A stretch of DNA of 24,651 bases from an uncultured Oscillospiraceae bacterium (GTDB taxonomy: Bacteria; Bacillota; Clostridia; Oscillospirales; Oscillospiraceae), in assembly GCA_934565775.1 (NCBI GenBank), contig CAKTIN010000023.1, positions 1 through 24,651 on the forward strand. Reading direction: 5' to 3'. Made by a program: the position numbers and the translations under genes. Numbering within the stretch: the stretch's first letter is position 1; the number at the start of each line of letters is the position of its first letter. This document shows, in pieces, positions 10,481 to 24,651 of this stretch. The notes under the pieces were generated by a model, which saw only the letters and a list, made by a program, of their open reading frames with translations, was not told the DNA's origin and made no database searches.

Positions 10481-10577
10481 GACAGAGTAGGAGACCGAGC
10501 GTCAAGTGCCACCGGGACGGGGAGTTGCCCGGAGGACGAAGGATTGATTCCACGATGAGGTCACCGCACCCGCTGTT
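10481..10577 (+). promoter_or_regulatory. Tetrahydrofolate (THF) riboswitch aptamer
   Basis: The segment carries the conserved THF-riboswitch strings in the right order: AGAGTAG (10484-10490), GCGTCAAGTG (10499-10508), GGGACGGGGAGTTG (10514-10527), GACGAAGG (10535-10542) and the 3' block CACCGCACCCGCTG (10562-10575). GACAG (10481-10485) pairs with CTGTT (10573-10577) to close P1, and GACC near 10493 pairs with GGTC near 10559 as the next helix. It lies between its own promoter and a folate-type ECF transporter gene, the usual partner. The class call is from memory of the consensus, not from a covariance search. Confidence 0.87.
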
Positions 10578-24183: not shown

Positions 24184-24212
24184 TTGTAAACCCGAGAAAT
24201 ATATGTTAGAAT
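24184..24212 (+). promoter_or_regulatory. SigA-type promoter of the prfC leader
   Basis: -35 TTGTAA (24184-24189), 17-bp spacer, -10 TAGAAT (24207-24212). Expected start near 24219, giving a leader of about 130 nt before prfC, long enough to hold the upstream ORF. Confidence 0.75.
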
Positions 24213-24257
24213 ATTTAAGTTTGACACCCATCGTTTCAATCACTCGGAGGAAGTCCC

Positions 24258-24302
24258 ATGATTTTGCACTTCTGTTTCCCCGGCGCGGTCTGTCCGCCCT
24301 AG
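24258..24302 (+). CDS. Putative 14-aa leader peptide upstream of prfC, ending Pro-Pro-stop
   Basis: ATG 24258 to TAG 24300-24302, peptide [20 protein letters not shown] (24246-24251) lies 6 nt before the ATG, as good a ribosome-binding site as that of any full gene here. The C-terminal CPP followed by a stop codon is a context known to slow peptide release. The ORF lies within the prfC transcript and ends 47 nt before the prfC ATG. No homologue is known to me; coding is inferred only from the ribosome-binding site and position. Confidence 0.5.
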
Positions 24303-24307
24303 GTCCG

Positions 24308-24337
24308 TCCGTTTTTCCTTGTATCGATCAAAACGGA
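24308..24337 (+). promoter_or_regulatory. Stem that can mask the prfC Shine-Dalgarno
   Basis: TCCGTTTT (24308-24315) is the exact reverse complement of AAAACGGA (24330-24337), with a 14-nt loop. The last three bases of the right arm, GGA, are the first part of the prfC ribosome-binding site GGAGGT (24335-24340). The left arm starts 6 nt after the leader-peptide stop. Confidence 0.5.
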
Positions 24338-24349
24338 GGTATATTTGTT

Positions 24350-24651
<302 letters not shown>

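Follow-up and report, generated by a model that had tools for sequence, protein, structure and literature searches.

A proline-ended upstream reading frame as a candidate translational attenuator of release factor 3 in Oscillospiraceae

Does a short reading frame ahead of prfC, the gene for release factor 3 (RF3), control the translation of that gene, and if so, what would it sense? The question is raised by the end of a 24,651-nucleotide stretch of DNA from an uncultured Oscillospiraceae bacterium (contig CAKTIN010000023.1), the whole of which was analyzed and is referred to here as the window. The reading that we consider probable is that of a translational attenuator, in which slow termination, mostly at stops read by release factor 1 (RF1), would switch on RF3. 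The upstream open reading frame (uORF), its end, its stop codon, its position and its link to prfC are established by sequence statistics, while the masking of the prfC Shine-Dalgarno (SD) sequence, and its unmasking by ribosome position, are predicted by computed folding.

The prfC leader of the window

All of the elements lie on the forward strand. The leader begins with a promoter-like site, recognized by consensus only (24184..24212; TTGTAA-17-TAGAAT, with TG before the second hexamer), and continues with GGAGG (24246..24250), the SD sequence of the uORF, 7 nt ahead of its ATG at 24258. The uORF (24258..24302) comprises 14 codons, terminates in CCG CCC TAG (stop codon at 24300-24302) and presumably encodes a slow-termination leader peptide. 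Its final proline directly precedes the stop, as in TnaC-type arrest; moreover, it carries its own SD sequence and lies between the promoter-like site and the gene, as the uORF of an attenuator would. With 14 codons, it is not an AUG-stop minimal ORF. Five bases separate the uORF stop from TCCGTTTT (24308..24315), the left arm or anti-SD, which according to the footprint model would be covered by a ribosome at that stop. Together with the right arm, AAAACGGA (24330..24337), it forms an 8-bp stem (duplex -11.4 kcal/mol) over the prfC SD sequence, GGAGG (24335..24339), the 5' part of which is covered by the right arm. The initial annotation, which had claimed the SD sequence, the 14-codon uORF ending in Pro-Pro-UAG and the 8-bp stem over the prfC SD, was correct in coordinates and sequence.

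The gene itself starts with ATG at 24350 and leaves the window (24350..24651). Its first 100 amino acids match prfC (TIGR00503, E = 1.4e-52; PRK00741, E = 1.7e-59); as the window holds only the 5' part, the curated whole-protein cut-off is out of reach. Over these 100 residues prfC runs in a single frame from its ATG, with neither the in-frame stop nor the frameshift site of prfB; the putative sensor is a separate uORF. The prfC matches of relatives, in the sampled family and in the genus of genome G246, are likewise free of internal stops, except for one TAG in 1 of 76 rows from that genus. Genomes G292 and G298 contain two prfC matches each, one of those in G298 with an internal stop; these may be contig ends or duplicates. 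No Rfam cis-regulatory family matched positions 24184-24352 at gathering thresholds. The only Rfam match in the window is a THF riboswitch aptamer at 10481-10577 on the forward strand (RF01831, 80.3 bits, E = 2.6e-17).

Viewed in isolation, the window does not exceed what chance could produce. The fold of its leader has a z of 0.18, with 114 of 200 shuffles folding equally well, and its SD-unmasking effect amounts to 3.8 kcal/mol versus 0.9 for shuffled spacers (p = 0.10). The significance of the arrangement rests on the relatives.

Leaders of prfC in related genomes

Contigs of named genomes provided 80 prfC loci, retained from at least 598, and a viral collection provided three. Among species genomes, prfC matches were present in 140 of 250 from one family, in 74 of 81 from the genus of G246, and in 4/4, 3/3, 25/31 and 23/26 genomes of four further genera. 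The sampled family takes in genomes of Flavonifractor plautii (L009, G005) and Oscillibacter valericigenes (L013, G008), by which we take it to be the Oscillospiraceae. The window belongs in or beside the genus of G246, because the two best matches of its murC DNA (74%) and the fifth are members of that genus.

Two rules were applied to these leaders. The strict rule called for an ATG start, SD of at least 5, spacing of 4-10, no more than 20 codons and a stop at least 20 nt ahead of prfC; the looser rule, for the genus of G246, called for an ATG start, SD of at least 4, location within 240 nt and proline at position -1 or -2. The strict-rule set consists of 255 distinct leaders from 264 loci with a match, after removal of leaders that duplicated another over 120 bases, of loci with fewer than 60 upstream bases, and of L083 and L223 (prfC start missing); it covers the sample apart from three later genera (those with 3/3, 25/31 and 23/26 genomes). 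The strict rule misses L219 (MRLHYPP, weaker SD), which the looser rule counts, and the GTG-started L132 (MLQFISVCGPH). L236 and L358 represent one genome and were counted once. The leaders share ancestry, so that all p-values serve as guides.

Under the looser rule, 43 of the 74 prfC leaders in the genus of G246 contain a short, SD-led uORF with proline at -1 or -2, as does the window. Examples are MFLSVPI, MSHFGPI, MGVSCPT, MRFHSFP, MGFLLSPP, MRYRTPH and MNFHFWP, in which the residues before the end vary freely. By this rule the other 31 leaders have no Pro-ended uORF, which makes the device dispensable. The strict rule gave 57 uORFs longer than M-stop in the 255 leaders; 44 of these (40 of the 52 distinct peptides) have proline at -1 or -2, compared with 20% of background SD-ATG short ORFs (235 of at least three residues from the same loci, mostly within genes; binomial 3.7e-18). 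The uORF had been expected to be conserved with a Pro-Pro end and variable upstream codons. The uORF, a proline-containing end and the variable codons were indeed recovered, but Pro-Pro as a requirement had to be abandoned, since it closes only 9 of the 44, as opposed to Pro-X in 29 and a single final proline in 6 (final proline in 15 overall). Cysteine, also put forward as a feature of the uORF and a possible signal, is not conserved in relatives and was rejected.

The proline codons are CCC (19), CCA (14), CCG (10) and CCT (1); as the third base varies, it is the amino acid that is kept. Two uORFs of the genus contain no proline (L228, ending in GST, and L239, ending in ITT), and were kept among the 46 Pro-type rows for the folding and stop counts. 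In these 46, the stop is TAG in 40, TAA in 6 and TGA in none, versus 48% TGA in the background, and the base 3' of the stop is C in 24; C after the stop is a weak termination context according to work in E. coli. The usual length is seven sense codons (37/46), and the 14 of the window are more than usual. The stop of one further uORF, MRHFPP-UAG in L358, lies 165 nt ahead of prfC, far beyond the others, likely owing to an insertion between uORF and gene.

Pro-ended uORFs also occur in a second family. In the genus of G054, four of the 25 genomes with prfC carry MKQFISAGRCLTSPT, MKLFSAGNRLVGPT, MKYLFSAGNCLVSPT and MNQILAGCRLFSPT, all ending in S/G-PT-UAA (L318, among the 25, lacks the prfC start), and a doubtful MNHTPP is found there as well. 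Most of L309, L311, L312 and L316 show a palindrome-like stretch resembling ATACGAATCGTAT after the PT-UAA uORF and TTCCAA before the SD sequence, which may represent another way of masking.

In other genera the same place is occupied by a minimal frame, SD-AUG-stop, detected 17 times by the strict rule versus 0.39 expected from background density (for example, GGAGGGCAATCCC ATG TAG in L084). Two of the 17, L124 and L044, resemble chance by distance or stop and were removed from the follow-up stop and folding counts; one, L004, uses UGA. Both forms coexist in one four-genome genus, with ...HLQVPH-UAG in L095 and L114 (the latter with only the end of the uORF in sequence) and AUG-UAG in L152. 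One locus filed as viral, L081 (IMG/VR, 4919 bases), contains prfC with an AUG-UAA start-stop leader, and may be a bacterial fragment. Start sites of this family frequently have a C-rich run between the SD sequence and the start codon (GGAGGGNNNCCC-start), for prfC and uORF alike, as in L105, L121, L133, L142 and others. A GGG-CCC mini-hairpin noticed by eye in start-stop leaders was discarded, as prfC starts are preceded by this C-rich run too, and it was taken to be a start-site habit of the family.

A tree built from 285 prfC bases of 176 leaders displays 34 changes among Pro-type, start-stop and no uORF, and hints at repeated gain and loss of leader types, although only 14 of its 173 inner branches carry a star and its root is implausibly long.

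The link to prfC was examined with the pattern GGAGG + ATG + CCNNNN-TAG, limited to proline at -2 with TAG, in the 81 genomes of the genus of G246. It occurs at 137 places, 76 of them in frame, of which 31 are on a prfC contig and 45 elsewhere. Sixteen of the latter were inspected, and each is contained in a frame of 101 amino acids or more on one or both strands; for this reason they are not leaders. The remaining 29 include several copies of a recurrent MMTTLSPG-type match, whose inspected copy (L357) lies inside longer frames. An earlier pattern that included the anti-SD had a fixed spacing and for that reason failed to detect most prfC cases. In 10 of 10 genomes (L362-L371), prfB is uninterrupted, with an N-terminus like M(N)IEFDxYKxKL and without the frameshift site, and the classical release factor feedback therefore appears to be absent there.

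Masking of the prfC Shine-Dalgarno sequence and the proposed control

In 37 of 39 Pro-type leaders, a TCC or TCT belonging to the anti-SD starts at positions 4-11 (the stop codon occupying positions 1-3), and the partner of the anti-SD is the GGAGG of prfC plus flanks. The base after GGAGG, where paired, is engaged as C-G (20), U-A (9), G-U (2) or U-G (1), a tally taken from predicted duplexes and biased towards pairs. Each anti-SD fits its own leader: the own duplex averages -11.66 kcal/mol versus -10.48 when permuted (1.2 lost), and none of 5000 permutations matches the true pairing among 39 leaders (L255, L072, L167, L095 and three MSHFGPI duplicates left out). On these predicted duplexes the anti-SD pairing is leader-specific, and the SD-masking stem, whose conservation had been named as a check, is kept in relatives.

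The computed cost of opening the prfC SD in 46 leaders falls from 8.0 kcal/mol when free to 2.4 once the bases under a ribosome at the uORF stop are kept unpaired, a difference of 5.6 versus 0.65 in shuffled spacers (Wilcoxon 7.6e-12); with the upstream leader folded as well, the difference is 3.1 versus 0.57 (p = 4.7e-9). Little unmasking (a difference of 1.5 kcal/mol or less) is seen in 11 of the 46. With the ribosome moved along the 37 seven-codon uORFs from codon 2 to the stop, the opening costs are 8.05, 7.73, 7.25, 5.78, 4.23, 3.06 and 2.91 kcal/mol, compared with 6.5 with no ribosome. The initiating ribosome is thus predicted to deepen the mask, and a ribosome near the uORF end to lift it. 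By computed folding, then, the family as a whole has the sequestered and ribosome-freed SD of an attenuator, the window alone reaching p = 0.10.

In the proposed mechanism, the first ribosome would translate a very short uORF, sited where relatives without a uORF start prfC. The uORF end would terminate poorly, owing to proline at -1 or -2 and an RF1-read stop (UAG, sometimes UAA), often with C next. With ample RF3, RF1 would be recycled and the ribosome would depart, allowing the anti-SD, which begins within the first eight bases 3' of the stop, to pair with the prfC SD, so that little prfC would be translated. With RF3 (or RF1) scarce, the ribosome would stay at the uORF stop and cover the anti-SD, leaving the SD free, and RF3 would rise. 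In the sister genera, an SD-AUG-stop minimal ORF would replace the peptide as the barest release-factor-dependent wait. Comparison of the sequences supports the interpretation first given to the locus; translation of the uORF, slow termination with a waiting ribosome, induction and RF3 as the sensed quantity are what we infer. With somewhat less confidence, we favor the wider view that programmed poor termination controls RF3, a hard-to-end frame (Pro-ended or AUG-stop) having been placed repeatedly before prfC as feedback on RF3/RF1 recycling in lineages without the prfB frameshift.

Published work bears on the individual steps. In single-molecule and turnover work, RF1 dissociation requires RF3 while RF2 leaves spontaneously, and an SD-AUG-UAA mRNA served as substrate for peptide hydrolysis (PMC5995542); RF3:GTP is stated to accelerate RF1 release 500-fold (PMC3988563). 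In E. coli K-12 without RF3, stop occupancy rises 2.5-fold, or 1.4-fold with a more active RF2, and in some overlapping gene pairs the downstream member goes up (PMC5373646). Clades without RF3 show stronger depletion of C-terminal proline (PMC7246954). Short peptidyl-tRNAs also drop off with the help of RF3 (PMC10192219), which offers another route by which a very short uORF could respond to RF3. Together, these reports make a Pro or Pro-X end with an RF1-read stop a plausible RF3 meter. Less favorable are the accounts that UAG occupancy resembled that of UAA in E. coli without RF3 (PMC5373646), so that no special tie between UAG and RF3 is seen there, and that expression in M. pneumoniae is unchanged by C-terminal proline (PMC7246954).

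Among the alternatives, the strongest, which we regard as possible but clearly less probable than RF3 control proper, is that the leader senses RF1 activity or general termination capacity (RF1 amount, methylation), with RF3 as the remedy and not the measured quantity. RF1 scarcity would look the same as RF3 scarcity, all 46 Pro-type stops are RF1-readable, and release at a Pro end is described as inefficient for both RF1 and RF2 and worse when they are unmethylated (PMC7246954, citing Pierson 2016). Yet 31 of the 76 in-frame matches to the pattern in the genus of G246 are at prfC, whereas none of the 16 other inspected matches is a leader, and RF1 turnover is reported to be essentially blocked without RF3 (PMC5995542), which couples the two.

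The position of the uORF bears on a further alternative. The median distance from the end of the promoter-like site is 40 nt to the AUG of Pro-type uORFs (site present in 36/46), 42 nt to the start-stop AUG (13/17) and 41 nt to the prfC start in those members of the genus for which the rule gave no uORF (20/29), and in the window the uORF ATG lies 45 nt away. These near-equal distances indicate that the uORF sits where the first start codon would ordinarily be. The constant distance in both classes would also suit a roadblock or mRNA stabilizer, in which a ribosome held some 40 nt after the promoter-like site shields the transcript from a 5' exonuclease, as in STAB-SD elements. This would account for the start-stop class, in which SD masking was absent under folding with two footprint models, and for which transcript protection and reinitiation are the candidate outputs on prfC. 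It leaves unexplained, however, both the leader-specific anti-SD of the Pro-type leaders and the proline and stop preferences, and we consider it unlikely as a general account.

Still less probable is a sensor of proline supply or EF-P, with the wait at the proline codon(s) instead of the stop. Proline is the conserved residue, and a ribosome with its A site on the last sense codon frees the SD nearly as well as one at the stop (3.06 vs 2.91 kcal/mol), so that structure cannot separate the two waits. Nevertheless, 29 of 44 uORFs have a single proline at -2 followed by another residue, the Pro-type class is devoid of UGA, and Pro-less AUG-stop ORFs occupy the same place in sister genera. Chance short ORFs, finally, would suit the window viewed alone and probably explain MKNQKKSGPI (L072), the lone Lachnospiraceae case of its kind in 23 genus leaders, but for the whole family chance is scarcely credible given the enrichments of Pro ends, start-stop frames and anti-SD pairing and the 43 of 74 genus leaders with uORFs.

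Relation to known leader systems

Autoregulation of release factor 2 (RF2) by frameshifting in prfB is known, and there, as in the proposed prfC leader, the level of a release factor is read as the dwell at a stop of a class I factor. The prfB sensor is an in-frame UGA inside the gene, whereas that of prfC would be a separate uORF ending in UAG or UAA. For RF3, we know of no autoregulation, and a literature search, largely of journals open without subscription and with sources available in part, revealed neither a uORF nor autoregulation of prfC.

Arrest peptides that act through SD masking include ermC, a further case of translational attenuation. Similar in layout are MifM-yidC2 and CliM-yidC2. 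In these, as proposed for the prfC leader, a stem that covers the SD of the downstream gene is opened by the position of a ribosome on a short upstream frame, and that gene relieves the stall. For CliM of C. difficile, arrest is reported to occur at the stop codon of the peptide itself, and some of the particles contain a bound release factor (PMC13183943). In contrast to MifM and CliM, the prfC uORFs have no conserved peptide, retaining only the last two residues, the stop choice and the length, and their target is RF3.

TnaC shares with the prfC uORF a C-terminal proline before the stop, and termination is its slow step. Its stop is UGA and its output is Rho-dependent attenuation. The prfC uORFs, in contrast, lack conserved upstream residues, end in UAG or UAA, and would act by SD masking.

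The start-stop class has counterparts in AUG-stop minimal ORFs, in which initiation occurs directly before the stop, as in AUGUAA of Arabidopsis NIP5;1 and in Ribo-seq data from E. coli and C. jejuni. Boron-dependent stalling at AUGUAA is described as controlling the NIP5;1 mRNA (PMC11915504), and a regulatory potential has been ascribed to the start-stop sites of E. coli (PMC11955535). Those of prfC differ from NIP5;1 in being bacterial, SD-driven and recurrent before a release factor gene, with no known small-molecule ligand.

If true, the prfC leader would add to the frameshift of prfB an independent way of keeping release factors in balance and a natural reporter of termination speed, would exemplify convergent evolution on a kinetic property and not on a sequence, and would give bacterial AUG-stop minimal ORFs a biological role. 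The question of which terminations need RF3 inside cells also becomes testable; the sequences suggest that selection has arrived at proline in the last two positions, UAG and short peptides. An arrest uORF with SD masking is of a known kind; what seems to be new is the target gene, the step that would be sensed, and the conservation, in two forms, of a kinetic property.
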